Origin: Prosopocoilus inquinatus
Taxonomy: Eukaryota > Arthropoda > Insecta > Coleoptera > Lucanidae
Assembly (NCBI GenBank): GCA_036172665.1
Contig: CM069876.1
Coordinates: 5,084,001 to 5,148,000, forward strand
Direction: 5' to 3'
Length of the DNA stretch: 64,000 nt
Part shown: positions 7,774 through 57,870 of the stretch, piece after piece
Layout of the letters: the number at the start of each line of letters is the position of its first letter
Numbering within the stretch: the stretch's first letter is position 1
The notes under the pieces: model-generated
Told to the model about the DNA's origin: nothing
Database searches by the model: none
Seen by the model: the letters and a program-made list of their open reading frames with translations, nothing else
Made by a program: the position numbers and the translations under genes

Positions 7774-7970
7774 AAAAATTTTGTGCAAATCGTTTTTGAT
7801 TGCAGTGGAAACCCCGAGCAGCCTCTGGACAGCTGTTTCAGCCCTGCTTGGAGCTTCTTCAGCAGAGACGTAGCTCGACATTCCCACTGCAGACCAAAAA
7901 CGACTTGCCCAATTTATTCGCAATTGCGATGTAAGAAAAAAGCGATAGTAAGATGTCGCTATTTTATCTG
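7774..7970. mobile_element. Hammerhead repeat (family I) locus 1, in PLE
   Basis: The locus has a minus-oriented part (7774 to about 7930) joined to a plus-oriented 3' end (AGCGATAGTAAGATGTCGCT...TTTTATCTG). The flanking duplication is TTCTGTTTATATAG (7760-7773 and 7971-7984). The minus PLE copy has the uninterrupted site (TTCTGTTTATGTAG at about 3728-3741), so this is a clean insertion into the PLE endonuclease region. It contains the hammerhead at 7821-7869. Confidence 0.88.
7821..7869 (-). ncRNA. Hammerhead ribozyme, family I, locus 1
   Basis: The 49-nt fold on the minus strand is GTCTCTG/CAGAGGC stem I (7 bp with one G-U), CTGAAGA core, AGCTC-CAAGCA-GGGCT stem II (with one wobble), GAA, palindromic ACAGCTGT stem III, and cleavage after C of GTC. 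All core bases match the hammerhead consensus. Stem II pairs right up to the core, so this family fits better than the PLE motif. Confidence 0.8.
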
Positions 7971-8246
7971 TTCTGTTTATATAGGTGAAACGAGCCAAAA
8001 TTAAAAAAAAACCGTTTAGACCAACATAAATATCATATTAAAAAAAATAATCAAAATCATTCAATGCTGGATATAGATCTGTCAATTAATTTAATAATAA
8101 TAATAAAAAAAAAAATAGTTTTAATTTAGTTCTAGTTACTTTTCTCTTTATTCCGGACAACTCGTAGTTTAGTTTAAAATCATGTTACCTTTTCGTTTCT
8201 CTCGACGACTTGTTTCTCTTGATAACTTGTTTATTTACTTTGTTTT

Positions 8247-8288
8247 CACTCCTGACGAAGCTATAAATCTATAGCGAAACGTTGAGTG
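8247..8288 (+). ncRNA. Hammerhead-like motif of PLE, plus copy
   Basis: Same layout as the minus-strand motif at 3252-3293: CACTC, CTGACGA, A, a 6-bp stem II with AATC loop, GAA, ACGT, T, GAGTG. It lies about 85 bp before the right end of the composite PLE, in the position expected for a PLE terminal-repeat ribozyme. Confidence 0.6.
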
Positions 8289-8412
8289 TTTTCCCTTCAT
8301 ATTTCTGTCCGGTTCGAGATTAAAAAAACTTTGTACTTACAATTTTCATCGGACAAGAACAAACTTCAATTAAGAAGTTTATAGTAGAAATTAATGTTCA
8401 AAATTAACTCAC

Positions 8413-8728
8413 ATAATAGTATGGAAATCATCGTCGACTAAAATCATATCGGCAGCTTCCTTGCAGACATCTGTTCCGTTCTTGCCCATTGCAATGCCAA
8501 TGTCGGCTTTTTTCAAAGCGACGCCATCATTGACTCCGTCTCCAGTCATACCTACTATGTACCCCGTCCTTTGCAATGATTTTACTATAGCCAATTTATT
8601 TTTGGGAGATACCCTGTAGAAAACCGTTGCAAGTGGTACCGCCGCATCTAATTCAGTTTCAGAAAAGTTATCTAACTGTTCACCAGATAGAACTTGAGAG
8701 TGAAATGTGTCTATACCAACAGATTGGG
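8413..8728 (-). CDS. SPoCk: SPCA-type Ca2+-ATPase, exon F (P domain hinge)
   Basis: The exon is 316 nt: two bases completing Ala521, 104 codons (522-625), and two bases of Ile626. It encodes the C-terminal half of the phosphorylation domain: [16 protein letters not shown], the Mg-binding hinge TGDGVND (582-588), and [20 protein letters not shown]. The residue after GVND is Gly, where most P-type pumps have Ala; from memory insect SPCAs share this, so it need not be a lesion. The acceptor is TTTTTAG at 8729 and the donor GTGAGTT begins at 8412. The preceding intron is only 64 bp. The following intron now contains the 5.2-kb Penelope composite. Confidence 0.95.
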
Positions 8729-8792
8729 CTAAAAATAACAAAATAACATTCTTCGTGTTTACACCCAAAAAAAAAAAAAAACAAAACATTAC

Positions 8793-9315
8793 CAATAGCA
8801 ACTGCAGTATCCATGGCATCCCCCGTAACCATTTTAACCTGCACACCCGACTGCAATAGTGTTGTAATGGACTCACGAACATACTGTCTTGGTGGGTCGC
8901 ATATACCAACCAATCCCATATAAACAAGCTCTTGAAGTGACGACCCCTTCGCCATGGCCACAACTCTCAATCCTTGCCTGCCGATTTCATACGCTTCTAT
9001 CATATAGTCTTGTTCTTTTTTGCTCGTCAATGGCTGAATTGTGCTATTTAAATAGTACTTTGTACATTTCGGCAGGATTTTCTCCATGGCACCCTTCACG
9101 AAAAATATCTCTTGCTTTTCATTGTCGTATTTAGGAACACATTTGACGGCCATCATTTTTTGTTCAGAGGAAAACGGATACTCTTGCAAACGAATGTATC
9201 TATCCCCGACTTTGTACATTCCGTGTTTCATAGCAGCAGCTAATAGTGCCCCTTCTGTCGGTTGCCCAAGTAGAACTTCATTGTTTATGATTGCATTATT
9301 GCATACCGCTCCCAC
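8793..9315 (-). CDS. SPoCk: SPCA-type Ca2+-ATPase, exon E (nucleotide-binding domain)
   Basis: This is the largest exon: 523 nt, 174 codons (347-520) plus one base of Ala521. It encodes the whole nucleotide-binding domain and the return to the P domain. Visible motifs are [35 protein letters not shown], the ATP-site KGA (K420 to A422), [20 protein letters not shown], and the conserved TGD (510-512). The acceptor is ACAG at 9316-9319 and the donor GTAATG begins at 8792. The donor is followed within 10-30 bp by an A-rich tract on the plus strand, giving a T-rich 64-bp intron. There are no stops or frameshifts, so the exon looks functional. Confidence 0.95.
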
Positions 9316-9639
9316 CTGTTACACGTAATGCAATTCGTATTATTTGTAATTCAAATTGTTTGTTGTAGTTAAGGCCCTTATGACTCGATGTTAATTTTGT
9401 GTAAAATTTGTTACAAAGTAAAAGAAAGAGACTGTGATAGTCTCAATAATTATTAGTTGATTTAATACTCTTTGGTAGGTACCACTAAAACCGCTACTTT
9501 TTATACTCCCGAACACTAAAGTCACAGATTTGCGAAATGTTCGGATTATCGAACGAAAGACAAAATATCCTCCATATTCTTAATTACCAGGGGGATGGAG
9601 CAAGTTAAGCAAGGCACGGGGACGTCGATTAAAAACTTT

Positions 9640-10340: not shown

Positions 10341-10349
10341 ATTCTCCCA

Positions 10350-11384: not shown

Positions 11385-11396
11385 TAAAACATTGTT

Positions 11397-11839
11397 TTAG
11401 AAAAATTTTGTGTAAATCGTTTTTGATTGCAGCGAGAACCTCGAGCAGCCTCTGGACAGCTGTTTCAGCCCTGCTTGGGGCTTCTTCAGCAGAGACGTAG
11501 CTCGACATTCCCGCTGCAAACAAAAACGACTTGCCCAATTTATTCGCATTTGCGATGTAAGAGTGATGAACAGATAAAATAGCGACATCTTACTATCGCT
11601 TTTTGACCTAACATTGCAGTAGGGTGGACAAATTGAAGCGGGATTTGCTCCTAATAAGTTCCCCATGCAAGGCGGCCATGCTTGCTGTCAAAGCATAATG
11701 AAAGATTTTAGAAAAATTTTGTGCAAATCGTTTTTGATTGCAGCGAGAACCTATTAGGAGCAAATCCCGCTTCAATTTGTCCACCCTACTGCAATGTTAG
11801 GTCAAAAAGCGATAGTAAGATGTCGCTATTTTATCTGTT
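11397..11839. mobile_element. Hammerhead repeat (family I) locus 2
   Basis: The locus is 443 bp with a 12-bp duplication TAAAACATTGTT (11385-11396 and 11840-11851). A minus-oriented stretch longer than one unit (GAAAAATTTTGTG recurs at 11400 and 11711, spacing 311) is followed at about 11752 by a plus-oriented 3' end finishing TTTTATCTGTT. This is a 5'-inverted, more-than-unit-length insertion. Confidence 0.9.
11448..11496 (-). ncRNA. Hammerhead ribozyme, family I, locus 2
   Basis: This is a consensus 49-nt fold on the minus strand: 7-bp stem I (GTCTCTG/CAGAGGC), CTGAAGA, stem II AGCCC-CAAGCA-GGGCT with five perfect pairs, GAA, ACAGCTGT, and C at position 17. No core deviation was seen. Confidence 0.85.
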
Positions 11840-13780: not shown

Positions 13781-13784
13781 TCGT

Positions 13785-15014: not shown

Positions 15015-15070
15015 CTAAAACCAAGAGTTTTAATTAACCAGTTCGTTTGCATTTTTGAATTGTAGAATAC

Positions 15071-21978: not shown

Positions 21979-23660
21979 ACAGGGTGTCCCAGAGTTCCGT
22001 AAAAGTTCCATAACTTTCTTGCCAATCCAGGTATCGACTCGATTTTCTTTTTGTATGATAGGAGCGCTTCTATTGCACATTCTAAAACTATTTTCCGTTG
22101 TATACAGGGTGTCCAAGTATTATAAAAATATTAAAGTTACATTTTTTTTTAATTGAAACACCCTATTTTCACTTCATTTTTGAATTCTACACTAAACTTT
22201 GCGTTAAATTTATTTTTACGTATCAATCATACTTTTTGATGTGAGTCATTTTTTTCTTAAAAATTCCGGGATGCAAGGTTTCATTCAAAAATTCGTAACT
22301 TCTAAATCACTAAAGATAACGCAACCGATTTTTTTTTTTCAGTTAATGCCGTGTGCTTTTAGATCAAGCCGAGTCGTGAAGAGCTGTTCCAAGGCTTCCT
22401 ACGATTTTTTGAATATGAATAATTATAAATAACAAAAACTTCATTTTTTCAAGTGGAACACCCTGTATATTTTCACACCATTCCATAGCCTTTTTGACAA
22501 GCTTTTCAATGACATACAGCTTGTAGGGTCCAATTTTGATATTCGACGAGTTATTGAGGAAATAGTAATTTTTAGGTATAAATATTTAACAAAACACTGA
22601 AAGTTTGTAGTAGGCCGGTGTTAAAATGAAAATCGATTAAGATTTTAAACCAATCTCAGATCAGTTACGGACGTAATGTGTCAGTAGGAGCGAATTTCTT
22701 TAGTTTAATATTTTATTCGCTGTGCATGATCATCCGTGATCGATCAATAGGACTGCGGCTTTAATTTCAAAGTTATCCTCCCAGTTCGCGTGAATTAGAA
22801 GTTCTCCTGATGATTCATGAAAATTCTAACTTGATTACTCGGGAGAAACATATACAAGTCAGTTTCTTTTGAGATTTCCTGAGTACTCAAGTTAGAATTT
22901 TCATGAATCATCAGGAGAACTTCTAATTCACGCGAACTGGGAGGATAACTTTGAAATTAAAGCCGCAGTCCTATTGATCGATCACGGATGATCATGCACA
23001 GCGAATAAAATATTAAACCAATGAAATTCACACTTTTTAATGCAGTACGTCCGTCACTGATCTGAGATTGGTTTAAAATCTTAATCGATTTTCATTTTGA
23101 CACCAGCCTACTACAAACTTTCAGTGTTTTGTTGAATATTTACAAATTGGACCCTACAAACTGTATGTCATTGAAAAGCTTGTCAAAAAGGCTATGGAAT
23201 GGTGTGAAAATATACAGGGTGTTCCATTTGAAAAAATGAAGTTTTTGTTATTTATAATTATTCATATTCAAAAAATCGTAGCAAGTCTTGGAACATCCCT
23301 TCACGACTCGGCTTGATCTAAAAAGATTGGCCACAGCTTCGGCATTGACTGAAAAAAAAAACTGGTTGCGTTATCTTTAGTGGTTTAGAAGTTACGAATT
23401 TTTGATTGGAACCTTGCATTCCGGAATTTTTAAGAAAAAAATGACACATCAAAAAGTATGATTGACACGTAAAAATAAATTTAACGCAAAGTTTAGTGTA
23501 GAATTCAAAAATGAAGTCAAAATAGGGTGTTTCAATTAAAAAAAAACGTGCAAATGTGCAATAGAAGCGCTCCTATTATACAAAAAAAAAAAAAATCGAG
23601 TCGATACCTGGAATAGCAAGAAAGTTACGGAACTTTTACAGAGCACTGGGACAGCCTGTA
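21979..23660. mobile_element. Palindromic element, about 1.7 kb
   Basis: Two inverted arms of about 800 bp start ACAGGGTGTCCCAGAG and end TGGGACAGCCTGTA, folding at about 22855. The left arm has an extra segment of about 60 bp with another ACAGGGTGT end (about 22095-22160). Arms match nearly base for base in the inner half (the GATCATCCGTGATCGATCAA region at about 22730 mirrors about 22985). There is no transposase. The motif ACAGGGTGT(T/C)CC is shared by many elements here. Confidence 0.85.
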
Positions 23661-25327
23661 TATTTTAATTCGCGAAATATTTCCACAGTTTAATTTAAAA
23701 TACACCGGTTTTTTTGAAATTTTTTTCACACATCGCCAGGGGCATTGTTACTAGCGTTTTAAAGAGAAACTAACATTCCCCTTAAAATTCGAAATATTTT
23801 TTTCAGCTTTTCCAACTCGTTTCAATCTCATATTACCAGCAACTTTTACAAATGTTAATTCATTAGCCTTTAACTATTTACGTCGACAAACGCACCTTTG
23901 TACATTACGCACAAGACAAATTATCAACAAAGCAAAAAAAATCGCCTTTTCCGCACACCCGAGTAAATTTCGGCGAAAACACGGATGCTTACCCCCAATA
24001 CATTGAATTTGACTTCTTGATGCCTGAACATCGGTGGAACGACGCGATACTTCAAAATCTATTTTACTACTGCACACCAGAACATACGACCCATTGTTTA
24101 CCTTATGGTGTTTACAACGGTGGAAACAAGTAAACTGAACGTTGCTTGAGCGCGTTTGAGTTTGCTACAGGTTGTGTACTTGTTCCCTAAATTAGGGCCG
24201 GCAAGAAAACGCAAACCGCAAGACGATTTTAATTTTTGAGTGTCGAAAATAGCTTCCATATTTAGCGATTCAAAAAAGCGAAGCTAACGGATAATTTTAA
24301 CGAAAATGAAATATAAAAAACGTAACTAGACAATACAGGAAGATTCAGGCAACCCATTCATTAAGAGTTTACGGACTTCTCCTTTGAATTTCTGTTTCAT
24401 ATTTTGCAGTTACAAGTTAAAGATAAGGATCTATCAAAATATAGTATTTTTAAATTTCGGACACTTCCGCTTATACCGGAAGTCTCTAGCAACTTTCTTA
24501 TTTTAGATGGACTAACCCATTTTATTGCATTTTTGGGATCTCCAAGAAATTCTAGAAATATTTTGTGCAATATGATACAAGAAAAATTAATCGTTTCCGA
24601 GGTATTTCCATTTTTTTTTAAAAGAGCTCAGACTTGCAGTCCCTTGTTTATGATAGTGCCATCTTTGTGCAACAAAAACTACGATGCCCATTTTTGTCCT
24701 GTAGTAGGCTACAGTAACATTCTTTCAGATCATATCCAATTTTGCACTTGATTGCTTACAGGCTGATTGAAAAGTAACTTCAATTCGAACTAATTTCAAC
24801 TGTCGAAAAGTCATATTTTTTAAATGGAACGCCTAGTATATTTTTATACCATGTGACTCAGGATTAAATGTTCTTTCGTCCTGTATTAGCATTCCCTATA
24901 CCTATCTCTTATAGTTTACTAGTTATCGATGTGTTCTTTTTAATTACAATTTTTGAAATCATCCGTCTAGTAGGAATTAAAAAAAAACAATTTAATCGCT
25001 ACAAAGAACCAAAAATGAATATTCAAACACAGACATATTAAATGTATTTGATGATAAAAAAACCGACAATTCAAGAAGTTAGTAAAAAAAAAAATTGTTA
25101 TATCACAGAAAATATGTTATTACTTAGACACAATAGAAAGTTATTACTAATAAATAATAACTGACGACAACTTAGAGTCGATATTATAACCACCAATTTG
25201 TGTATTATTTTTAATATTTCTGATTTATTTATTAGTTTTCATAAAATTCTGTTTTGTAAGTGTAAGTTTCTCTTTGTAAAATGTCATAATAAGAATTCTA
25301 ATACATGCGTCATATGTAAATAAAAAC

Positions 25328-25581
25328 TTAGAAAAACTTTGTGCAAATTATTTTTGATTGCAGTGAAAACCTCGAGCAGCCTCTGGACAGCTGTTTCAGC
25401 CCTGCTTGGGGCTTCTTCAGCAGAGACAAAAAATTTTTCTAAATCTTTCATTATGCTTTGACAACAAGCATGGCCGCCTTGCATGGGGGACTTATTACGA
25501 GCAAATCCCGCTTCAATTTGTCTATCCTACTGCAATGTCAGGTCAAAAAGCGATAGTAAGATGTCGCTATTTTATCTGTTC
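25328..25581. mobile_element. Hammerhead repeat (family I) locus 3
   Basis: A 254-bp insertion with a 12-bp duplication GTAAATAAAAAC (25316-25327 and 25582-25593). The minus-oriented part with the ribozyme (to about 25427) is joined to a plus-oriented part ending TTTTATCTGTT. The same 5'-inversion architecture occurs at loci 1 and 2. Confidence 0.9.
25379..25427 (-). ncRNA. Hammerhead ribozyme, family I, locus 3
   Basis: Consensus fold, identical in core, stem II, stem III and stem I to the copy at 11448-11496. The inversion junction lies directly at the end of stem I. Confidence 0.83.
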
Positions 25582-26341
25582 GTAAATAAAAACATTAAAT
25601 GATAGACATGTATTTAAACATTATTTCTCGGTTTTTAAAAAGAAATTGAAATTACAGTCAGAAATTAATTAAAAAAAAACCTCAGTTTGTTGAATTTTCA
25701 TAACACACTATTCAGGAATAATACAGAAAAGTGAAAATTGATTTGTCAGAGAGAAAATCATGAATAGAAAGAGAAATGTAAGAGATGGGTATAGAGAATA
25801 AAGTTCGAAAGAATATTTAATTCTGAGTCACATGGTATAAAAATATACTGAGTATTCTATTTAAAAAACGTGACTTTTTGACAGTTGAATTTAGTTCGAA
25901 TAGAAGTTACTTTTCAACCAGCCCGTAAATAATTTTGTGTAAAATTAGGTATGACCTGAAAGCCTATGACTACAGCCTACTGCAGGCCAAAAATTTAAAT
26001 TATAGCTTTTGTTACACACAGATGGCAGTATCATAAACAAGGTACTGCACCTTTGAACTTTTCTTAAAAACTGGAAATACCTTTAAAACGGCTAATTTTT
26101 CTAATGTTACACAAAGTATCTTTAGAATTCTTTGAAGATTTCAGAAATGCAATAAAAAATGGGGTATTCCATTGAAAATAAGAAAGTTGACAGCAACTTC
26201 CGGTACAAGCGGAAATGCCCGAAAGTTGGAAAGATCATATTTTAATAGATCATTATCGCTAACTTATAACCGCAAAATATGAAACAGAAATTCAAAGAGG
26301 AAGTCCGTAATGAATGGGTTGCCTGAATCTCCCTGTACAGT

Positions 26342-27842
26342 GTGGCCCATTTTTGATGGTTTCACAGGGTTTCTCAGTTATTTATAGGAATAGAAGAAAA
26401 CCGTTTTCGCGACCCAATGCTACTTTTTCGAGAAAAACTCAGTGGAGAAAACCAAAGGTAGCTATCTCGATTCGTTTGGGAAATATCGGCCGAAAACGAA
26501 TTTTTCCGAAAAATTATTTTTCACAATATCTCAGTTGTTTGACAAGATATTTTGAAAATTCAAAAACTATTTTATTCAGAAATTAATGTAGATTTCAATG
26601 GAGTTATTACTTTTTGTAGAAATTGCATCAGTTCTGCGAAACAGACTATAACTTTCTAATTTTAAATGGGAACCGCAGTTGGCTATGGCACAAATAAATA
26701 GCTTGTTTAATGAAGTTTTCAAAAATATAAAGTTTGATATAATTATTTTTACAAATAATAAAGATACTAATTATTTTTCGTTTTTCGGTAGCTAACAAGT
26801 TACCTGTGGCAACAAAAACAAGAAATTAGTTCAGTTTTTTTCCACAAAAACAGAATTATTATTATTAAATAAAACAGCTAACTTAATGAATAAATAAATA
26901 GCTTCATGTATCTATTAGACACTGACATAAAACCACAAGTATGTAAAAATGAATTAAATCCACTTAAACAGTTCTGTAATTATTAAAATGAACAGCTAAG
27001 AGATTTTTATATATTTTAAATTGTTTTAATTAGTGTGATTCTTTAAAAAATTATTAAGTTTCAGATATTTCTTAAGTTTAACTACTTTTGTATATTAATA
27101 AATTTAATCACGGGTAAAAGTGAAATAAACACATCTAAGAATTTTTGGTAATTCAAAATTTAGGATTTAATAATTTCAAAGGAGCATATAACATATAATT
27201 CCTCAAAACTGCATTGATATTTATTTATATTTATATTACTCGTAGTTTTATGAGCTCTCTAATAGCATTATGCATTTATTGTTTTAAATTTAATTACCTG
27301 TATTATTTATTCTAAGAATAGTTTTTTGAGGAAAACAACTGAATTTTCCTTTGTTTCTACTGTCGTAGATAGCTTGATAGGTACTGCAAAGTAATGAAGT
27401 TAGTATCTTTGTTATTAAAAAAATAATTATATCAAACTTTATATTTTTGAAAACCTCATTAGACAAGCTATTTATTTGTGTCATAGCGAACTGCGGTTTC
27501 CATTTAAAATTAGAAAGTTATAGTCTGTTTCGCAGAACTGGTGCAGTTTCAACAAAAGATAATAACGTTAGTAAAATCTACATTAATTTCTGAATAAAAT
27601 GAATTTAATTTTCAAAATATTTTATTATTATTTTTAAACAACTGAGATATTGTGAAAAATAATTTTTCGGAAATATTCATTTTCGTCCGATATTTCCCGA
27701 ACGAATCGAGATAGCTAACTTTTGTTTTTCCCACTGTGTTTTTCTCGAAAAAGTAGCATTGGATCGCGAAAACGATTTTCTTCTATTCCTATAAACAACT
27801 GAGAAACCCTGTAAAACCATCAAAAATGGTCCACTCTTTACA
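26342..27842. mobile_element. Palindromic element P3
   Basis: The inverted arms are about 700 bp. The left arm includes GGCCCATTTTTGATGGTTTC and TTTCTCAGTTATTTATAGGA; the right arm carries the mirror images ending at the CCATCAAAAATGGTCCA block near 27815-27840. The fold centre is around 27080. It is directly abutted by P2 on the left and P4 on the right. Confidence 0.8.
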
Positions 27843-30800: not shown

Positions 30801-31172
30801 CGGAAGTGTCCGAAATTTAAAAATACTATATTTTGATAGATCCTTATCTTTAACTTGTAACTGCAAAATATGAAACAGAAATTCAAAGGAGAAGTCCGTA
30901 AACTTTTAATGAAAGGGTTGCCTGAATTTCCCTGTATATTATATTATATTGTAATCTGCTCACTGAGGCGCATCCAAATATTTAAAAATATACAGGGTGT
31001 TCCATTAAAAAAAAAACTTAGTTTCCACGAGCCGCCATTTTTATGATCACTCTGTACAGTTCAAAATAATTTTACAATATGCCGCGTGTTGTCCAGTATA
31101 AAATTCGATTTTTTTCCTAACTTTTTCCCATAGGTCTCATATAAGAGATACGCATCGTTGGGCCACTGTGTA
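27842..31172. mobile_element. Outer palindrome P4 with nested elements
   Basis: The outer arms pair 27842-28100 (ACAGGATGGCCCAACGACGC) with 30955-31172 (GCATCGTTGGGCCACTGTGT). Inside are a second palindrome (about 28120-28990, folding near 28565) and a complete P2 copy (29104-30944). Reconstructed order: P4 first, P2 later into it. Confidence 0.75.
29104..30944. mobile_element. Palindromic element family P2, copy 2
   Basis: It starts ACAGGGAGATACAGGCAACC and ends GGTTGCCTGAATTTCCCTGT. It matches copy 1 (24334-26337) through both arms, without the hammerhead insertion, so it serves as the empty-site reference for locus 3. Confidence 0.8.
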
Positions 31173-34830: not shown

Positions 34831-35641
34831 GGTTAGGTAGCAATAATAAGGCAGATAAAAATTATTTTACTCTTTCATAGAAATTGTTTGAGGGTCGCTG
34901 AATGCAGCTTAAATGTTCCGGTGGAGCTTGGTTTTCGACTATTCTCCGACGTCCGAGGCCATAAAAAGTCATAAAAACGACCTAAAACACAGATATTGTA
35001 CTTAAGGCAGGACAAGTATCGTGTTATTTTGTTAATTTTAATAATAGTTTAAAATATTTCGTGCGTGTTGCATTAATTGATGATTAGTTTTGTGCTAATG
35101 TGTACTTTAACAGTTACATTTAAGAAATTCAATCTAAAGGCGATCGAAAAAGTGGAAATTCTTACATCATATTAATTTGTAAATTGTCAATAATCAACTT
35201 ACAATGTTGATTACTAAAATTTATTGAATATGTACAGGAAAAATTAATTTGTTTATTTATTAAACCGACGAAATAAACGTCTGTACTAGGCGAGAGCTTT
35301 TATGTCTTTGTGGTTTAAGCCGACGCGAAAATTCAAGTTCAATATTATCCTTAATAAAACATGTTTTTTATGTTTGAATGTAAACAATTAAAAAATAGTT
35401 CGATTGAGAGCTAGCGAAATTATTCAAGCTTATTTTGAACCCATAGATTATTGTGTGTACAAGCAATCTAATTTATTTACATTTTTCATCGTATCATACT
35501 CCAATTTTTGCTTTCCGTTTTTACAATAGGAATAGTTTCTGCTCTTGCAATACTTATTCTGTAGCTGTTAGTGCGATAATTAAAAAATAATTTCACGCAT
35601 TTTCGACGCAATTACAAAACTAGAGTACGAAGATGTTTAAT

Positions 35642-35874
35642 AATCACAAAGCAACACAAAACCTGTGGCTGTAATCCAAATAAATAGTGAGAAAACCCCT
35701 CGACCACATTAATTCACTGAAAGCGAATACGTATTTCGGTAACGAAGTTACCATCTTCAGCGCTAAACTGATATTGATAATATCAGTTTAGCGCTGAAGA
35801 TGGTAACTTCGTTACCGAAATACGTATTCGCTTTCAGTGAATTAATGTGGTCGAGGGGTTTTCTCACTATTTAT
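35642..35874. mobile_element. Hammerhead-like repeat, family III
   Basis: It is flanked by a 16-bp duplication TACGAAGATGTTTAAT (35626-35641 and 35875-35890). The body is an almost perfect inverted repeat of about 90-bp arms (35681-35769 and 35778-35872). Each arm carries CTGAAGA, T, GGTAAC-TTC-GTTACC, GAA, ATACGTAT and T, framed by AGCG/CGCT. Like family I it is a small, 5'-inverted insertion with a long duplication. Confidence 0.75.
35779..35822 (+). ncRNA. Hammerhead-like motif, family III
   Basis: Located in the right arm: AGCG (stem I), CTGAAGA, unpaired T, a 6-bp stem II with TTC loop, GAA, ATACGTAT palindrome, T, CGCT. A mirror copy is in the left arm on the minus strand. The core is conserved; short stem I and the extra T make activity uncertain. 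Confidence 0.5.
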
Positions 35875-36532
35875 TACGAAGATGTTTAATTACTTCAGCA
35901 AAAATCTAACGAAGATCAGGTACTCGTTTTTAACATAATTGTTAATGTGTATTACAAAGATATGCGTAAACAAATGTTTTTACTTATCGCATGTTGAAAA
36001 TTCAAATAAACATGCCGATGTTTGCAAGTCGGATTCATATTCGTATACAATAAGACCTTGACCGAGTTCTTCTAAATGTAAATAAAAATTTTATTGCTGT
36101 TTATTGTTTTTATCGTAATAAATTGCTGAAACAAGTCGTAAACCAAGCAGAGGTTTCAAAACAAAGGGATTGCGCTCGCTTGTGATAGGTCAGTTTTTCA
36201 TTTTTGGGCAAAAAATTTCAGATTTGGAGAATTAATTTCTTATGTAATGAGGAACTTACAGTATCATTTAAAGACAGAGGTTTTGAGACACGCTGTATAA
36301 ACTGTCCATGAACGTAACTGAACGTAACAGTAAATATGAGAATTTAATTTACACAATCTATTAGACATTTTATAACAATTTAAAGTACTTATTATTACAT
36401 AAAAACTACGATACTGAACTATAAGCTTCAAGTATCTGAGAGGCTATACACATGTGTCATTCGTAGTAACAAAACAACGAAAGTTTCAACTACTGTTTTA
36501 AATTAGCAGGAGGTAACTAAATTAAAATATAC

Positions 36533-41414: not shown

Positions 41415-43304
41415 GTACGGGTGGATTAAATTCGATGTCTCTTATGGGCATCTCCGTAACTATAAGGGATAGAAAAAAACTAGTGGCCAAGTCCCGATCT
41501 CTTTTTTGGAGATTAAGTCAAAACCGTAAACAAAAATCGGCTAACTTCTTTTGTTTTCAAGTTATGGCCAAAAAATGACATTTTCGACTTTTCGTTTTTC
41601 GGTCATATCCCGTTTATTTTTAGAGATATTAGAAAACTGTTTGATCATTATTAGGACACTTTTTGGAATACAATTCAGTGGTGTAGTTAGTTTTTTTAAT
41701 ATTTACTTAAATTTTCAAGTTATAACATAAAGTTATATTTTTTTAAATAGAAATCATAGTAGGCAATGTTCTCATTAAATAGAGATTTTTTTTCTGTTTT
41801 CAAAAATATATACTTTGTTGGGTTTATTTCTTATAATAAATAGGTAAAATGCCATTTTTGTTATTAGCCTTGCGTATCCTAGTCTCAGTACGCTGGCTTC
41901 AATGCAGTGTCGACATTTTTTTTTGTTTTTATTAAATATTAACCAACTTTCAAACCTTTAGACAGTTTTGGCCGCTTAAAAAATTTCACATGCACTTTAT
42001 TTTACAAAATTCCGTTTGAGAAATGTAGCACCCATCGCGACCGATCTGGCAAAATGTTTTTTTTTGTTTTTATTAAATACGAATGCACGGGAATTTAGTT
42101 TGATACATATCCGATTTTGTTTATATTTTACTATTTGTGTGTTTGTTTTTGTTTTTCGTGTTTTTAATAAAATATAACTCGAGAGAAACAAAAGAAAAGA
42201 AAGCCTAATTTAGTTCTAATTTAGTAATTATTACCTTTATGTTTATCCGAACAACTTGTATTTTAGTGTAAAATCATGTTATCTTTTCGCTTCTCTTGAC
42301 AACTCGTTTATTTACATTTTTTCACTGACGAAACTATGAAGCGATAGCGAAACGTAGAATGGTTTTGCGATTTCACAGTGTCTGCTTTAAAGTTTAACAA
42401 CTATTTTCTCTCACATATTTCATCGAACAAGAGTCGACTTCAATTACAAATTTTTTATTGAAGTCGTTTCTTGTCCGATGGAAATTGTATAAAAATTGTT
42501 TTCAATTTTAAAAAGATATTGTGAAAATTACAGGAACGTTCAACGTTTCTTCCTAACGAAGCTATAAACCGATAGTGAAACGTTGAGTATTCGAGCAATT
42601 TTGACTGTTTAAAGATTGAAAACAATTTCTATATAAATTGAATGATAAACTCATTTTCAATAGAAAATCAGACAGGAACTCTTATCAGAACGGTCGCTCA
42701 AAACGATAAAACGGAAATTTGTAAATTAACGCTAATACTAAATTATTTACGCAGTCAAAATTTTGAAAATATTTGAAAGCTCGTTAAAATTTAATAAAAT
42801 AACGGCTCCGTATTGAACCCAGTCTACTGAGACTAGGATATTTACGCAAGGATAATAATAAAAATGACAGTTTTTCCTATTTATTATAAGAAATACACCC
42901 AACAAAGTATATATTTTTGAAAACAGAAAAAAAATCTCTATTTAATGAGGGCATTGCCTACTATGATTTCTATTTAAAAAAATATAACTTTATGTTATAA
43001 CTTGAAAATTTAAGTAAATATTAAAAAAACAACTACACCACTGAATTGTATTCCAAAAAGTGTCCTAATAATGATCAAACAGTTTTCTAATATCTCTAAA
43101 AATAAACGAGATATCACCGAAAAACGAAAAGTCGAAAATGTCATTTTTTGGCCATAACTTGAAAACAAAAGAAGTTAGCCGATTTTTGTTTACGGTTTTG
43201 ACTTAATCTCCAAAAAAGATATGGAGACTCGGCCACTAGTTTTTTTCTATCACTTATAGTTACGGAGATGCCCATAAGAGACATCGAATTTAATCCACCC
43301 TGTA
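41415..43304. mobile_element. Palindromic element P5 with PLE remnant in its centre
   Basis: Inverted arms of about 500 bp start GTACGGGTGGATTAAATTCG and end AATTTAATCCACCCTGTAC. The centre (about 42200-42610) holds sequence matching the PLE 3' region at 8140-8290 (GTAAAATCATGTTATC, CGACTTCAATT) with two decayed hammerhead-like motifs. The PLE-type sequence therefore inserted into the fold centre of this element. Confidence 0.78.
42325..42590 (+). ncRNA. Decayed hammerhead-like motifs
   Basis: Near 42328, CTGACGA-A-ACTAT...ATAGC-GAA-ACGT keeps the core but has lost stem I pairing. Near 42549, CTAACGA-AGCTATA...CGATAGT-GAA-ACGT has the core G changed to A. Both look like inactive relatives of the PLE motif at 8247. 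Confidence 0.45.
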
Positions 43305-43599: not shown

Positions 43600-44953
43600 T
43601 ACCGTGCCTTCGATTGAATTCCTCATTAAAGTGGGCTATGATTTCACTGTTTTTTTTCTCCTAAGATTTGCAGCACTGATAGCCGTTCAATTATTTAATT
43701 AAACAAATGTCAAATTGACACTTTGTATTTTCAATTAATTCAAAATGTTAGAATTACAGCAGAAAATATTTATTGTTGAAAGTTATTTTCAAACCGGTAG
43801 AATAGAAAATGGAAATGGAAAAGTTTATTCAATTAATCAGTGTGTACAGAAGTTTCGATAGCAGTTTCCTAATTTTGCTATTACTTATGAATAGCTAGTT
43901 AAACATATCCATGCTTGTGTTCTTAAATTTCGTGAAACAGGAGGATCACTTGGACGCAAAACAGGGAGCGGAGCAGCTAAGAAAAAGAGTGCAGCCTGCA
44001 TTGAAGATGTTCGGGATCGAATGGAACACTCTCCCAAGAAATCTATTGCGAAACTTTCACAAGAAGTTCAGCTATCAGTGGGAACATGTCACACTATTCT
44101 TAAAAAAGACTGAAAGCTTTATCCATATAAGATTCAAGCAGTCCACGAACTCACGCCAGTAGATTTTCACAGAAGAACAGAATACTGTTAGTGGTTTCTT
44201 GATAACTTAAACAACGACGACATTCTTGACAAGTGGTTCTTTTCCGATGAGGCCTGGTTTCATCGCTCAGGGTATTTAAATAAACAGAATATGAGAATAT
44301 GGGCAGCAGAAAATCCCCATGAATTTGTGGAAACTCCATTACATCCATTAAAAATTGGTGTTTGGCTAGCAGTGTCAAGAAGGCGTATTATCGGACCAAT
44401 ATTTTTTAACGACTCAGAAACTGCTGAAAGATACCGAAATAAGTTATTAGAACCTTTCATTAATCAACTGCATGATGATGAACTTACAGAAGGTTTTTTT
44501 TTTCAGCAAGACAATGCTACTGCCCACACAGCTCATCAAACAATGACTTTCCTGCAGCAGTTTTTCGATAATCGGATTGTGAATTTTCCTGCAAGGTCTC
44601 CGGATCTCACAATTATGGATTACTTCATTTATCCGCACATGAAAAACACACTTTTTAGGACTACGCGTCACACAATCGAAGAACTTCGTGCGGGCATTAC
44701 GGATGTGTGTGCAAACATAACCCCCGAACACTTAACAAACGGGTTTGAAAACATGAAACGCAGAGTACACTTATGTATTCAAGCTGAAGGAGAGCACTTC
44801 GAGCGTCTACTTTAAACTTTAATGTTGTGTTTTTATTTGATGTTATGATCACTACTGACAGTTAATGACAACTGTTTTCTTTAGAATTATGTCGCCAACT
44901 TCATAAAAAAATCACAGCTTACTTTAATGAGGAATTCAATTGAAGGCACGGTA
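43600..44953 (+). mobile_element. Tc1/mariner-superfamily transposon
   Basis: The element is 1.35 kb with inverted ends of about 45 bp (left TACCGTGCCTTCGATTGAAT, right mirror ending GAAGGCACGGTA) and TA at both edges, the expected target duplication. It carries one transposase reading frame on the plus strand. Confidence 0.92.
43745..44815 (+). pseudogene. Mariner-type DDE transposase, stop-damaged
   Basis: A single frame of 356 codons runs from ATG at 43745 to TAA at 44813. An N-terminal helix-turn-helix region (QQKIFIVESYFQTGR, VLKFRETGGSLGRKTGSG) is followed by the DDE/D catalytic domain: FFSDEAWFH (first Asp), FFQQDNATAHTAHQ (second) and SPDLTIMDYFIY (third). At least four in-frame stops (TAG at about 43859 and 43892, TGA at about 44111, TAG at about 44189) lie in the N-terminal half, while the C-terminal 174 codons are open. 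No frameshift was seen, so decay is by point mutation. Confidence 0.9.
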
Positions 44954-45507: not shown

Positions 45508-46008
45508 AAAAGTTGTGAACGACCGATTTATTCGCAATTGCGAAGTAAATAGTGATGAATAGATAAAACAGCGACTCCCTAACGATAAGATTGCATAAGG
45601 ATTGATAAAATGAAGCGGGTTTGCTACATAATAAGTCACCTCATGCAAGGCGGCCATACTTACTGTCAAAGCATAATGAAAATTAAAAAAAAAATTGTTG
45701 CAAATCGTAATTGCGAATAAATCGGTCAAGTTGTTTTTGGTTTGCAGTGGAAATCTCGAGTTACGTTTCTGCTGAATAAACCCCAAACAGAGCTGAAGCA
45801 GCTGTACAGAGGCTGCTCGAGGTTTTCACTGCAATCAAAAAGGATTTGCAACAAATTTTTTCTAATCTTTCATTATGCTTTGACAGCAAGCATGGCCGCC
45901 TTGCATGGGGTGACTTATTACGTAGCAAACCCGCTTCAATTTGTCAATCTTTATGCAATATTAGGTCAAAAAGCGATTGTAGCGTGTTGCTGTTTTATCT
46001 ATTCAATA
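45508..46008. mobile_element. Hammerhead repeat (family I) locus 4, diverged
   Basis: A minus-oriented unit (45508 to about 45710) is followed by a plus-oriented unit ending GTTTTATCTATT. The ribozyme at about 45764-45813 has the core CTGAATA (G to T) and a damaged stem II, so it is inactive. It is more diverged than the other loci, indicating an older burst. No clear duplication was found. Confidence 0.75.
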
Positions 46009-49763: not shown

Positions 49764-50613
49764 TTACGCTTAGATATCTCCTTCCTGATAGAAAGATTCT
49801 TTTGAAACAATAAATAAAACAATAAGAAAGAATCTCTCAAAACAATAAATTATTATTTATCTTGAAGACGCTCTCAACGTATGCGTTGGATCAATTTCGA
49901 TATCTGGATAAAACATTGGCACTTCTTAAAAACATTTAAATAATATTAATTTTCGTATAAGCTCTTGCATTAGAAGATTGTGTCGATTCGTTGCTCTGGT
50001 TCAATGTGTTAGATGCCACTATTGGTTTACCATAATTTAGTAAATCGTTCGGATTGATTTGGTAAGTTATTTTATTTAGGGTTGCCATCTCTCAAATTTA
50101 AAAACTAGGACAAAGATACTTAAAAATCCGGACAGCGAAGATATTTCACAGGTGGTTTTTCTGTGCAAAATTCTGAAACAGGTCAATTTTTAATTTTTAA
50201 AAGACACATTTTAATATAAAATTTTGTTGATCAGTATTTATTTTCCACTGTTATGTCAACGTTAATATTTTTAAAACTGAAGCCATAACTTTTTTTATTC
50301 AGCAGTTGATCGTCCTTCTTTTCAATTAAATGGTGACGTAAATTTTTAATTGCCTTGGCAGATTCTCTGTTTTGCGAGTCATTTATGGATTTGGGGCCTT
50401 GTTGAATTCCGAAACAGTTATCAACCCCTGCACAGTAGACGTTATTACTTTTTTTTATTATTTTTAATTAAATTAATTGATTTAATGTTTAGAAAAACAA
50501 ATGAATATCGCATAACTGAGACATAAACTGAAATTGATTTTTTTTTTCTTAAATGAAACATTTTAGAAAAATTTTGTGCAAATCGTTTTTGATTGCAGCG
50601 AGAACCTCGAGCA

Positions 50614-50662
50614 GCCTCTGGACAGCTGTTTCAGCCCTGCTTGGGGCTTCTTCAGCAGAGAC
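50614..50662 (-). ncRNA. Hammerhead ribozyme, family I, locus 6 minus half
   Basis: Consensus fold: GTCTCTG/CAGAGGC, CTGAAGA, AGCCC-CAAGCA-GGGCT, GAA, ACAGCTGT, C17. All stems are perfect apart from the one G-U in stem I. Confidence 0.85.
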
Positions 50663-51133
50663 GTAGCTCGACATTCCCGCTGCAAACAAAAACGACTTGC
50701 CCAATTTATTCGCATTTGCGATGTAAGAGTGATGAACAGATAAAATAGCGACATCTTACTATCGCTTTTTGACCTGACATTGCAGTAGAGTAAACAAATT
50801 GAAGCGGGATTTGCTCCTAATAAGTTCCCCATGCAAGGCGGCCATGCTTGCTGTCAAAGCATAATGAAAATTTTAGAAAAATTTTGTGCAAATCGTTTTT
50901 GATTGCAGCGAGAACCTCGCTAAAATTTTCATTATGCTTTGACAGCAAGCATGGCCGCCTTGCATGGGGAACTTATTAGGAGCAAATCCCGCTTCAATTT
51001 GTTTACTCTACTGCAATGTCAGGTCAAAAAGCGATAGTAAGATGTCGCTATTTTATCTGTTCATCACTCTTACATCGCAAATGCGAATAAATTGGGCAAG
51101 TCGTTTTTGTTTGCAGCGGGAATGTCGAGCTAC

Positions 51134-51182
51134 GTCTCTGCTGAAGAAGCCCCAAGCAGGGCTGAAACAGCTGTCCAGAGGC
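51134..51182 (+). ncRNA. Hammerhead ribozyme, family I, locus 6 plus half
   Basis: Same 49-nt consensus fold on the plus strand. This is the best reference copy: core, stem II, palindromic stem III and GTC cleavage triplet are all intact, and it lies within a head-to-tail repeat so a one-unit transcript could be released. Confidence 0.85.
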
Positions 51183-52102
51183 TTCTCGAGGTTCTCGCTG
51201 CAATCAAAAACGATTTGCACAAAATTTTTCTAAAATTTTCATTATGCTTTGACAGCAAGCATGGCCGCCTTGCATGGGGAACTTATTAGGAGCAAATCCC
51301 GCTTCAATTTGTTTACTCTACTGCAATGTCAGGTCAAAAAGCGATAGTAAGATGTCGCTATTTTATCTGTTAAATGAAACACTTGATATTTTTATACGTA
51401 TTTAAAATCTTAAATAATAATCGCCTTTTCTTTTTCAAACAAACTTTGTTTTTAAAAACTTTGTTTGATTAAATCCTAACATTTTGTCTAACAGATGATT
51501 TTAGGGATCAATGAAGACTTGAAAGATGTTGATGAACCTTTATGGGTCGGCTGGGGGGTCGATGAAGCTTTAGGAGTCTTTTAGGTGGTCGGAATTGTTA
51601 AGTCTTATTTAATACAGGCCTATCTGAACGTTCATAAAAAAGTTAAGAAGTTCCAAATAATATTAAATTACTTTGAATCAGCTCGTATAAAGGAGAAAAC
51701 AAAAGACGTTCAATTGATTATCAAAATCAAAATACACCTAAAGTACAGTCAACTCGAATAAACAGAAACAAAAGGCGATCGTCGAATAAGTCAGAACGAA
51801 AATAAAAACTGTACAAAACTCAATAAGTCAAATCGATACAAAATCTGGCTTTCATCACAACCAAAAATTTAATTCAAATTAATAATTACAATACAAAATA
51901 AATAAAATAAAGTCAATGCCAAAATATAATAAACATATAAAAGATAATTAAAAAAATAAGAAATCATGTCAAATAAAATTAAACCAAAGAGAAAACAAAA
52001 AGCAAATGATTAGTTGATAATTTAAAAGGAAAATTAAAAAAAAAGTCCATCAATTGAATTGATTTTCAACTGAGGAATAAAAATAATATAAAGTTTGATG
52101 AT

Positions 52103-52360
52103 AACCAGATAAAATACCGACATCTTACGATCGCTTTTTGACCTGACATTGCAGTAGGATAGATAAATTGAAGCGGGATTTGCTCCTAAGAAGTCCCCCA
52201 TGCAAGGCGGCCGTGCTTGCTGTCAAAGCATAACGAAAATTTTTAGAAAAATTTTGTGCAAATCGTTTTTGATTGCAGTGAAAACCTCGAGTAGCCTCTG
52301 TACAGCTGTTTCAGCCCTGCTTGGTGCTTCTTCAGCAGAGACTTGTCCAATTTCTTCGCA
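52103..52360 (-). mobile_element. Hammerhead repeat (family I) locus 7
   Basis: A single minus-oriented, 5'-truncated unit without inversion. The 3' end (AACCAGATAAAATA, reverse complement of the common TATTTTATCTGTT) is on the left. The ribozyme at 52294-52342 has one stem II mismatch (AGCAC/GGGCT) and A at the cleavage position. Confidence 0.82.
52294..52342 (-). ncRNA. Hammerhead ribozyme, family I, locus 7 (variant)
   Basis: Core CTGAAGA and GAA are intact, stem I is intact and stem III is palindromic. Stem II has one mismatch, and cleavage would be after GTA, a weaker triplet. Confidence 0.7.
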
Positions 52361-53618: not shown

Positions 53619-53626
53619 TTCTCAAG

Positions 53627-54570: not shown

Positions 54571-54584
54571 TTCTCAAGTAGGCA

Positions 54585-55725
54585 ATGAATAACCACCAGG
54601 TAATTCAGATTCAGATTTTGAAACATCTGTCACTTATTAGCAAAGTTACTAACAGCGTGAAATGTCGAATACTAAATGTATTAATAAAGGTGACAGGAAT
54701 TTTTAAAGATTTATTTATAATTATAATCGTTTTGAACATAAAAAAAATTCCAAGATTTAGAAATGCCAAACCATTATGGTCCTTTATTTAGTTGTAACCC
54801 TGTATACAATAATGGTTTAACAAAAGGAAAATAATTATCTGAATAATCGCAATCTGGATGTCGTGCAATTTCTTTACACCCGGACGCATGTAGGTTACCA
54901 TGCTTTTAGTTATTAATGTTATTATTCACGCTTCCCGGCTAACTTTTTATATAGTATAATTATGTGGTTAGCAAGGTAACGATACTATTTTGTTTAATAA
55001 GGAGAAAGGTTTAAGAGTAAGATCGTAATTGCGAAGATCAATTTCACAGATAATATTTAAATGAAATTACACGGTCCGGAAACATGTTTCCATTTTCCAT
55101 ATACTAGGTATCTTTTTGTTGTCCTTTTTTTCGGCGCCTATAACACTCGACAGGGGCAAAAACTTCAAACGCTATTTTTATTCAATGTAAAAGCTCTCTG
55201 TAAATAGTAGGATTACATTTTTTGTCGAGAAAAAATTTTGCATTTGCAAAGCGAAGCGAAGCGAATAAAACATACTGAACTAATGTAGCCTGTTGCCACC
55301 ACCAACCTGATAAAATAAAATTTCGAGCGCTTTAATATTATACTCTATGAAACCCAAATGACTCATTTGTGTTAGAACGAAAATACATGATTTACAGCTT
55401 TGGAAATAATAATAATAATAAACGTCTTTATTTCCCAAGAGCTTTAGGTTCTAAACCTTAAATAAAAAAAGAGTTGTACCAGACAAAAAAAAAACGCCTA
55501 TTAAAGAAAAGACAAAAAAATTCGTTGTCTTGGAAACCAAAAACCAAGTGAAACAAATTCGGACCTACCATGACCTGCAGATTCCAAATATGTAAAAATA
55601 TGCAAGCGGTTCCGTATAAAATAAGATATTTTTTTAGAAAAGGTACGATCAGGGCATTTCAAGAACTGTATCACAAACAGGATATTCACTCACTGACTAA
55701 GTGACTAATAATTGTTAATGTTATG
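54585..55725. other. Unassigned repeats right of hAT element
   Basis: No gene was recognised. Around 55405-55500 an (AAT)n run followed by AAACGTCTTTATTTCCC is, on the minus strand, an AATAAA signal plus (ATT)n tail, like the 3' end of a non-LTR retrotransposon. GCGAAGCGAAGCGAA words occur at 55253. Confidence 0.4.
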
Positions 55726-55733
55726 CGATATGT

Positions 55734-56025
55734 TGCGAATAAATTGGGCAAGTCGTTTTTGGTCTGCAGTGGGAATGTCGAGCTACGTCTCTGCTGAAGA
55801 AGCCCCAAGCAGGGCTGAAATAGCTGTCCAGAGGCTGCTCGAGGTTCTCACTGCAATCAAAAACGATTTGAACAAAATTTTTCTAAAAACTTTCATTATG
55901 CTTTGACAGCAAGCATGGCCGCCTTGCATGGGGGACTTATTAGGAGCAAATCCCGCTTCAATTTGTCTATCCTACTGCAATGTCAGGTCAAAAAGCGATA
56001 GTAAGATGTCGCTATTTTATATGTT
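55734..56025 (+). mobile_element. Hammerhead repeat (family I) locus 8, single unit
   Basis: About 291 bp, plus-oriented throughout. It begins GCGAATAAATTGGGC, only about 20 nt past the common 3' end in circular order, and ends ATTTTATATGTT, so it is nearly one complete turn of a 310-nt circle. The ribozyme is at 55787-55835. Confidence 0.88.
55787..55835 (+). ncRNA. Hammerhead ribozyme, family I, locus 8
   Basis: Stem I, CTGAAGA, stem II and GAA match the consensus. Stem III reads ATAGCTGT, replacing one pair by a wobble. The cleavage triplet GTC is kept. Confidence 0.78.
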
Positions 56026-56626
56026 ATTGTAAACGTTCGATTTGAAAGATCACTGTATGAAAATTGTCAGCGTCTTGATCCTGCGAGCACGTTAAATTTC
56101 TTTACGTAATATGATCCGCTTATGCAGCACTCCTCAAGTAAGTTCAATCGTCTTGATGTCATTTGTCAACATGGAATTCCCTCTATTAAAAAGTTAATTT
56201 TTAATTCATCTACCGAAAAGGACTTTGAGTTGCGAGCTAAACAGAAGTCGGTAAATCATGCTAGACAATTTTCGCGGCGATTAAATCGTACTTGCGAAGT
56301 GCTCACCATGCAATTTTGTCAATTAAACCCAAAAACACGCGCATTACATTCTGTATTGTTCTAGAAAGAGCAAACGAATTTTGATAATAATTTTTCAAAC
56401 GTGACAGGATAGGTACTAAACTCTTACAAGGAGCTATGACGTAAACTTGAATAATGTGCCGGAAGGGGTGTCAGGTTAATCAAATAATTTAAAATGTTGA
56501 TTTTGCTTTCGATTTTTAGAATATTTTATATTAACATTTAAATTTTTATTACAGATATGTTACTTGTAAATCAAGCAAAACTTTGACATTTTTTTTGTAA
56601 AATAAAAAAAAAGTCTTTTTTCCTCT

Positions 56627-57870
56627 TGTACACTAATGCTTAAAAGTTTCGAAATGAAAAGCAATAAAATCGTTCGAATTTGAACCTTATTGAAACGGGC
56701 CTAATATATTTCGAACCTTAAGGAACAGAGACACTTTCTCCGCACCCCGATAGGAGGGTTGTTTACTTAGGTCCTATTAAACCCCGGCCGGTGCAGATGT
56801 TTATGGTTTGTTGAATTTCGTTGCCAGTATTTGGTTCCGAGTATTTATTGAGGCGACGCGCGGTTGCGAACGCGGACGCGGTGGCGAATTTGTTTGTTCT
56901 CTTTTGCTTTAACTTAAAAATTGAACAAAAAATGTTTTTTTTTAATTAGAATATTTTATATTGTTAAATAACAGGATTTCAGATCATATTATAAAGACAT
57001 ATAAATGTTAAATTGCTATGAAGGATCGACGATGTTAATTAATCTGAAAAATTATAATTATACCAAATTTCTGCTTTTATACACTTCTGGTTTGTTTGAC
57101 TTCACAAAAATTTTATTCGTTTGTAGTTTGTGTATGTTTTTCTGTGGATTCTAAAATTTTCATTACGAGAAATACATAAATAGATTTTTAGTAAATATGA
57201 AATACAGGGTGATTTATTAGCTCACTGACAACCTTTGCCATACGGAAAGCTCACATAATTTTAAGAAAATAATAACAATTAGGACATATGTTCGATTTTA
57301 TTTATTTTTAAGTAAATAGAAGACCTCACAATTTTGATTCTAGTTATTTCGTCCCGTTCCTCTGTACAGCTGTTTCAGTCCTATTTGGGGCTTCGTCAGC
57401 AGAAGCGATCGCAGGATGTCGCTATTTAAGCGGTTTCTATTATGCTATTTAAGCATTTCCGTTATATTTTACATTTTTTCACGTCATCTTTATTTTATAA
57501 ATGTTAATATATTGATATTTTCAATTCAATTTTATCATACACGTCTTATTCACATGTCAAGAAAGTATTTGAAGTATTTTGTGAAAATATGTGAATGATT
57601 TTTGAGTATTTGAAAAAATATATAGAATGAGCTAGATTATTTAAATTTGTTTCTTATTATAGTAATATAAATGCTAAGAAGTTCTGCTCAACAAAGCTAT
57701 TAATTAGTTGCAAAACATATGTGTATTTAATGAAACTAGAAAGTTAAATTTAATTAACGAAAAATAACAGATTTTATTTTATTGACTTATTTAATTTCAA
57801 TTGCCAAAGTTTCAGAAATTTTAATTTCATAATGCACACATTATTTACTACACATGTTATAATATTTAGA
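56627..57870 (+). repeat. Dispersed repeat, copy 2 (pair with 17830-19190)
   Basis: The match runs from TGCTTAAAAGTTTCGAAA through CTCCGCACCCCGATAG to CAACAAAGCTATTAATTAG. It is interrupted near 57205-57430 by other repeats, including hammerhead repeat locus 9. It has no ORF in common with copy 1. Confidence 0.6.
57357..57430. mobile_element. Hammerhead repeat (family I) locus 9, fragment
   Basis: A minus-oriented ribozyme (about 57359-57406: CTGACGA core, stem II AGCCC/GGACT with a mismatch, ACAGCTGT, A17) is joined directly to a plus-oriented 3' piece (GATGTCGCTATTT). It is short and diverged, but keeps the family's inverted architecture. Confidence 0.65.

Follow-up and report, generated by a model that had tools for sequence, protein, structure and literature searches.

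A hammerhead-bearing, retrozyme-like family in Prosopocoilus inquinatus with insertion scars resembling those of Penelope-like elements

The type of hammerhead ribozyme (HHR) found in the elements reported here is, going by published descriptions, also that of the satellite hammerhead repeats of schistosomes (SMalpha), cave crickets (pDo500) and newts. Metazoan non-long terminal repeat (non-LTR) retrozymes are described as type I HHR-bearing units of ∼170–400 nt that are low in GC, self-paired and flanked by target-site duplications (TSDs) of >4 bp (Cervera & de la Pena 2020, PMC7229834). Penelope-like elements (PLEs) are described as head-to-head inverted pseudo-LTRs (pLTRs) with an optional 31-bp tail and TSDs of 8–10 bp (PMC3846280), and with the purified protein of an anole PLE the HHR cut was placed at +26 and reverse transcriptase (RT) starts at +111 to +118, with both DNA strands extended (PMC11167929). 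Here we analyzed a stretch of 64,000 nt (the window; 32.7% GC) from the beetle Prosopocoilus inquinatus (assembly GCA_036172665.1, contig CM069876.1, positions 5,084,001 to 5,148,000, forward strand), in which an initial annotation had noticed, from the sequence alone, a dispersed family of small elements with a hammerhead. We propose, with a probability of roughly 0.64, that this is a metazoan non-LTR retrozyme family copied by a PLE-type RT/endonuclease from circular or multimeric RNA. As read from the sequence, the proposal draws on the hammerhead motif, fixed ends, independent inversions, TSDs, one empty site and PLE-type insertions in the same window that bear the same scar.

The family is like metazoan non-LTR retrozymes, as these are described in the cited text, in its type I HHR, its low-GC, self-paired unit of 310 nt, its TSDs of >4 bp and the co-residence of PLEs, and it is like axolotl HHR_Amex2 and invertebrate HHRs in having a 2-bp stem III with a tetraloop (PMC7229834). 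Whereas the accounts of published retrozymes concern mainly tandem dimers to multimers, most of the copies described here are dispersed and are head-to-head fold-backs whose two ends are fixed, and a forward tandem occurs in a single copy. Inverted arms, TSDs, an internal RT start, two alternative ends and a type I HHR upstream of the starts are shared with endonuclease-positive PLEs as described. Unlike PLEs, for which RT, GIY-YIG and a minimal HHR are described, the unit has no long frame, and stem I of its HHR continues past an internal loop as an outer stem; the unit 'tail' is also longer, ∼130 nt against 30–40 in PLEs. The term 'retrozyme-like' in the initial annotation appears right in kind, judging by a type I HHR in a 310-nt, non-coding, self-paired unit of 43% GC that is dispersed with TSDs; the fold-back layout, the fixed ends, the TSDs and the PLEs of the window go beyond that first reading. 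No relative of the unit was found in viral-contig scans and a genome-contig scan, which covered viral and prokaryote collections, nor did we find a description of fold-back retrozymes with PLE-type ends in the open-access literature. As far as these searches go, the family is new within the collections and literature covered.

Copies of the unit and their ends

Copy breakpoints were obtained by Viterbi alignment to a circular unit (Table 1). Segments of less than ∼20 nt outside the copies, along with some in L4, were dropped as alignment noise; the 9-nt inverted arm of L5 was retained, as it abuts the forward arm and begins at the zone called site 1 below, and the outer end of L4 depends on a 6-nt piece. 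Unit numbering starts at 50920, the first base of a full 310-nt unit (50920–51229; 43.2% GC). Nine loci sharing a unit of about 310 bp had been proposed, and nine copies are indeed present, but the full unit occurs only in L2 and L6, and L9 shares with it just the HHR and a terminal hairpin of ∼25 nt. The inverted arms of L2 and L6 exceed one unit, and L6, the sole forward tandem, is the only copy with more than one forward unit. The longest stop-free run in a trimer of the unit is 96 codons, with no RT or GIY-YIG frame of the kind that would place the unit among the PLEs. When folded as a circle, the unit reached −110.9 kcal/mol (z = −7.1), and none of 200 shuffles was as low.

The right ends of the copies are nearly invariant. 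Eight of the nine lie at unit 142–147 (site 2), with six at 142 or 143, that of L4 at 144 and that of L7 at 147, a clustering that has a probability of ∼8e-12 under uniform ends; the right end of L9 is too diverged for base-level placement. The terminal sequence, ...CGCTATTTTATCTGTT, is the 3' foot of the terminal hairpin and is found ∼195–200 nt downstream of the predicted HHR cut, from which it is distinct. Seven copies (L1–L6 and L9) are head-to-head fold-backs in which an inverted arm is followed by a forward arm, the calls being weaker for L5 (9-nt inverted arm) and L9 (arms of 43 and 25 nt). No two of the seven inner junctions are alike (150/107, 272/55, 215/302, 291/163, 307/8, 269/1 and 220/110). 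Because all seven differ, we conclude that every inversion arose anew as its copy was inserted, and we reject descent of the fold-backs from one master copy. Snap-back of the cDNA was likewise rejected for L1, whose inverted arm has sequence missing from the forward arm.

The outer ends of the inverted arms also recur. In five of the seven fold-backs (L1, L2, L3, L5 and L6) this end is at unit ∼3–14 (site 1), 57–68 nt past the predicted HHR cut; L4 has it at ∼173–186 and L9 at ∼262. When seven points were placed at random, 107 of 500,000 simulations brought five of them into a 12-nt span, for a zone picked post hoc. Inverted arms with two alternative internal starts are thus seen among these copies, and the five clear fold-backs have one arm from each site, never both from one site. 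A third recurrent position is unit 163, the base at which the forward arms of L4, L7 and L8 all start (6 of 500,000 simulations), ∼20 nt under one lap. The spacer at unit 143–162 is retained in L2 and L6 and recognizable in the divergent L4, and a linear RNA with ends at 163 and 142, like that of a short interspersed nuclear element, is disfavored on this ground.

Exact TSDs of 12–14 bp, well over the 4 bp that retrozyme TSDs exceed, adjoin four of the nine copies (Table 1). For comparison, mismatched ends gave 9 bp or less in 56 pairs, and of 19,936 random pairs from the window three reached 11 and none reached 12. For L1, which interrupts the plus arm of a PLE fold-back, an empty site is also available: the minus arm of the same PLE aligns at 3728–3741 to both L1 flanks, uninterrupted. 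This region of the minus arm codes for NCNSVYVGET, which, from the motif as seen by eye, may be the start of a GIY-YIG domain.

Table 1. Coordinates of the retrozyme copies, PLE-type elements and associated features in the window (u, unit position)
Feature	Positions	Strand	Description	TSD
L1	7774..7970	+	Inverted arm u3 back to u150 (HHR 7821–7869, −), forward arm u107–143; inside PLE plus arm	14 bp, TTCTGTTTATATAG, 7760–7773 and 7971–7984
L2	11395..11839	+	Inverted arm of 356 nt, >1 lap (HHR 11448–11496, −), forward arm u55–142	12 bp, TAAAACATTGTT, at 11385 and 11840
L3	25328..25581	+	Inverted arm (HHR 25379–25427, −), forward arm u302–143	12 bp, GTAAATAAAAAC, at 25316 and 25582
L4	45518..46005	+	Divergent, main segments 83–95% identity; inverted arm, forward arm u163–144; HHR core broken, ∼45765–45813 (+)	
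L5	46860..47004	+	Inverted arm of just 9 nt (weak call), forward arm u8–142; HHR absent	
L6	50561..51369	+	Arms of ∼1.2 units (inverted) and ∼1.5 units (forward); HHRs 50614–50662 (−) and 51134–51182 (+)	12 bp, TTAAATGAAACA, at 50549 and 51370
L7	52099..52360	−	Single arm from u163, without u∼180–214, end u142–147; HHR 52294–52342 (−)	
L8	55734..56025	+	Single arm, u163 round to u142; HHR 55787–55835 (+)	
L9	57359..57433	+	Divergent; 43-nt inverted HHR (from 57359, −), ∼25-nt forward terminal hairpin	
Terminal hairpin of the unit	51020..51059	+	u101–140, with inner stem AGCGA/TCGCT; its 3' foot is where insertions end	
PLE head-to-head fold-back	3201..8370		Arms running from 6524 to 3201 (minus) and from 6525 to 8370 (plus); RT open reading frame 6561–7559, RVT_1 match	13 bp, TAAGAAGTTTATA, 3188–3200 and 8371–8383
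Minimal type I HHR, PLE plus arm	8247..8288	+	Relaxed descriptor	
Minimal type I HHR, PLE minus arm	3252..3293	−	Relaxed descriptor	
Palindromic hammerhead element	35642..35874		HHRs 35790–35832 (+) and 35722–35764 (−), relaxed descriptor; arms ∼100 nt	16 bp, TACGAAGATGTTTAAT, 35626–35641 and 35875–35890

The hammerhead motif

Unit positions 215–263 read GTCTCTG-CTGAAGA-AGCCC-caagca-GGGCT-GAA-AC-agct-GT-C followed by CAGAGGC, the layout of a type I HHR with a predicted cut after unit 256. Past an internal loop, an outer stem (TCGAG/CTCGA) extends stem I. In our drawing, stem III has 2 bp and is capped by AGCU, a palindromic loop that would permit dimeric hammerheads as described in newts and axolotl (PMC7229834). 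The full core (CTGANGA...GAA) is present in eight motif copies of 49 nt at seven of the nine loci, two of them in L6, each where the initial annotation had placed it; the decayed ninth motif reported there is the broken one of L4, which reads CTGAATA, and L5 is without the motif. Most copies were said to keep the GTC cleavage triplet, and six motifs do (those of L1, L2, L3 and L8 and both of L6, L6a and L6b), the other three (L4, L7 and L9) having GTA.

The motif exceeds chance. A scan with a core-only pattern gave 21 matches against 7.8 expected, with a maximum of 16 in 100 shuffles. A strict descriptor (stem I of at least 5 bp, stem II of at least 4 bp, stem III of at least 2 bp, H17) was passed by six of the nine motif copies and by nothing in 60 dinucleotide shuffles of the window, and in these six the three stems that had been picked out by eye accompany the core. 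The copies at 52294 and 57359 fail through a mismatch in stem II. With a relaxed descriptor we obtained 10 matches in the window and none in 100 shuffles. Standard pairs fill 96.5% of the pair cells in an alignment of the nine copies, compared with 28–50% when the partners are slid.

The covariance-model check that had been suggested was made with Rfam. Searches of short stretches picked around the motif returned the Rfam model RF00163 (Hammerhead_1) as top match at 11449–11495 in L2 (25.8 bits, E = 6.7e-5, 76 bases searched) and at 57359–57405 in L9 (25.0 bits, E = 1.5e-4, 91 bases searched), with the core columns aligned in both, but all scores are under the gathering score of 34 bits, and a scan of the whole window at the gathering threshold found no match. 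In an E-value search of the whole window, the L9 motif was the one hammerhead returned (E = 0.1), and in a search of 50500–51400 (901 bases) Hammerhead_HH9 was the single hammerhead model listed, scoring 16.3 bits on one of the two L6 copies. Within the type I consensus of Rfam, L9 aligns to CCCAAAUAGG, and its loop AAAUA is that of the consensus. Wide E-value searches returned mostly palindromes that matched microRNA families under the cut-off, and these were not accepted as RNA genes.

Rfam scores that are absent or under the curated cut-off are what might be expected of a chance look-alike of a hammerhead in an ordinary miniature inverted-repeat transposable element (MITE) or satellite spread as DNA, and the fold-backs do resemble MITEs. 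Such an origin nevertheless sits poorly with the descriptor results (0 of 60 and 0 of 100 shuffles), with a right end fixed in 8/9 copies whose inner junctions all differ, with 12–14-bp TSDs at 4/9 and with a divergent copy, L9, that retains chiefly the HHR and the terminal hairpin. We regard it as highly improbable.

Penelope-like insertions and the proposed mover of the unit

The PLE that hosts L1 is itself a head-to-head fold-back flanked by a 13-bp TSD. Among 120 of 901 homologues of its RT that were listed, the species-named rows are all insects bar one archaeal metagenome bin, the best named match is from Vollenhovia emeryi (51% identity), and several carry PF01541 (GIY-YIG). Each arm holds a minimal type I HHR, for which Rfam gave no hammerhead match in the plus arm, and the two arms end 56 and 87 nt past the HHR cut; the offset of 31 nt equals the length of the PLE 'tail'. 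The palindromic element at 35642–35874 has the same build, with a 16-bp TSD and arms that end 46 and 84 nt past the cut, leaving a one-sided tail of 38 nt. Rfam reads this palindrome as microRNA families, under the cut-off, and no coding sequence that would name it was found in the element; we call it PLE-like (a pLTR fold-back) because of its anatomy, namely the fold-back, the TSD and the unequal ends. The PLE and this palindrome at 35.6 kb bear the same scar as the retrozyme copies.

In the mechanism that we favor, an RNA of ∼310-nt repeats with a type I HHR would be cut to unit-length RNA, and a host ligase would close the circle. A PLE-type RT with a GIY-YIG endonuclease would take the circle or an uncut multimer and nick AT-rich DNA. 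Copying would begin internally at a single fixed position, the hairpin foot at unit 142–147, and the second DNA end would usually prime in the zone at unit ∼3–14, the outcome being a head-to-head fold-back insert flanked by target duplications of 12–14 bp. Self-cleavage, circularization and the PLE as mover are what we infer here. PLE machinery is favored over that of a long interspersed nuclear element (LINE) because the retrozyme arms repeat the two-ended pattern of the PLE, an upstream zone and a downstream site. A case is on record in which a foreign gene was mobilized in trans by the pLTRs of PLEs (PMC3846280).

TSDs of 12–14 bp and 5' inversions are LINE features too, and a LINE could have moved the retrozyme by target-primed reverse transcription, with twin priming yielding 5' inversions as in the LINE named L1 (not our copy of that label). 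Twin priming, however, is occasional and led by microhomology, and inversion in 7/9 copies with a second start zone repeated in 5/7 exceeds what would be expected of it. In addition, inspection of 7 copies showed no poly-A at their right ends (LINE tails were not searched for), and it is the PLE-type copies of the window that bear the same two-ended scar. On the side of LINEs, the retrozymes of Nematostella have 15-bp TSDs that have been compared to those of LINEs (PMC4918200), and LINEs have been named in print as candidate movers. On balance we consider a LINE an unlikely mover.

A further possibility is that the 310-nt unit is a pLTR fragment of, or is reduced from, an unseen PLE family with a canonical hammerhead. 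The insertion scars are PLE-like, the palindrome at 35.6 kb shows that such hammerhead fragments insert alone, and a review proposes that retrozymes are reduced PLEs (PMC11722881). Against this, the sole RT frame of at least 150 aa identified in the window (5 of 10 long open reading frames scanned) is that of the PLE hosting L1, and the PLE HHRs of the window are minimal and differ from that of the unit. Shorter PLE fragments near the other copies were sought solely by DNA match to this PLE. We hold an origin as a PLE fragment to be quite improbable.

As to the template, the cleavage site is spanned by eight of the nine copies (all except L5). Because these copies cross it, and the arms of L2 and L6 exceed one unit, the linear cleaved monomer is excluded as their template. 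An uncleaved linear multimer, with the HHR dispensable and no circle, overlaps with the reading we favor and is compatible with the multi-lap arms of L2 and L6. HHR mutants of the anole PLE left insertion in vitro unchanged, unprocessed RNA being taken as the dominant substrate (PMC11167929), and the HHR core of our unit has a competing fold that is more stable (see below). A linear multimer does not by itself account for the forward arms of L4, L7 and L8 all starting from unit 163, nor for the inverted arm of L1 stopping at 150, unless a small hairpin predicted at unit ∼156–167 stalled the enzyme instead. We consider a purely linear template rather less likely than not. The more specific proposal that the PLE RT/endonuclease uses retrozyme circles directly, with the two DNA ends primed at two fixed positions of a single circle and each lap stopping at its own start, is tentative and falls somewhat short of even odds in our estimation. 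A lap round a circle that met its own start would explain both the starts at 163 and the stop at 150.

Several observations weigh against the favored reading of a retrozyme copied by PLE-type machinery. Five of the nine loci have no clean TSD: the duplication of L5 is imperfect (7 exact bases), and L4, L7, L8 and L9 have 4–8 bases, that of L7 (8 bases) being doubtful and the L8 match extending to 6 bases only. With respect to the ribozyme, no pair in the nine-copy alignment has a two-sided compensatory change and column shuffles do equally well (500/500), so that covariation provides no proof of the HHR. Furthermore, energy minimization of the HHR core yields a competing fold with GCTG paired to CAGC, at −20.8 versus −14.8 kcal/mol for the catalytic fold in an energy model without tertiary contacts. 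With respect to the PLE, the putative GIY-YIG region scores 14.6 bits against a Pfam cut-off of 22.6, with a zinc-finger model at 19.0 bits, also under its cut-off; the PLE arms are only 86–94% identical where aligned, so that this insertion is either old or made from two RNAs; and no active PLE was seen in the window. Local alignment of the PLE 3' region with the unit gave a score of 19, equaled by 32% of 500 shuffles, which gives no significant support to a recognition sequence common to retrozyme and PLE; the word AATTTTCAT near site 1, which PLE and unit have in common, is suggestive at most. Site 2 is at ∼195–200 nt past the cut rather than at 84–92. The anole PLE is described as starting at a like site on the two DNA strands, unlike the retrozyme arms (PMC11167929), and a rotifer study describes two PLE types without cross-mobilization (PMC3846280).

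Neighboring features and significance

The window also holds a minus-strand P-type ATPase gene, which we take to be the secretory-pathway Ca-ATPase. Exon-like minus-strand stretches lie at 3000–3200, 8409–9318 and 31374–31883 (8683–9318 by a match to Pfam Cation_ATPase, the others by eye), and two of them flank the PLE, which is apparently intronic. The minus arm of the PLE is split by a hAT-like element at ∼4065–6290 (matches to Dimer_Tnp_hAT and DUF659), and a DDE transposase remnant (DDE_3) lies at 44192–44815; both are under the Pfam cut-offs. Two more decayed PLE 3' ends, on opposite strands, are arranged tail to tail at 42190–42620 with decayed hammerhead-like stretches, enclosed by a larger inverted repeat (arms 41419–41849 and 42871–43300). 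Nested inverted repeats with arms of 266 and 180 bp, 94–97% complementary, occupy 22357–23323, and a repeat block at 24333–30937 has inverted and direct copies of ∼165–330 bp, the direct copies being spaced ∼4.6–4.8 kb apart.

Neither the PLE as mover nor the circle as template was found demonstrated in the open-access literature examined. If a PLE enzyme does use retrozyme circles as its substrate, the scars described here would name the mover of metazoan retrozymes and show circular RNA to be their template. It is the insertion scars, rather than the ribozyme, that should be of specialist interest. Finding a common scar on retrozymes and on PLE-type elements within one window yields exact, testable start sites on the RNA, and the stop points of single-lap copies offer a way to distinguish circular from linear templates.

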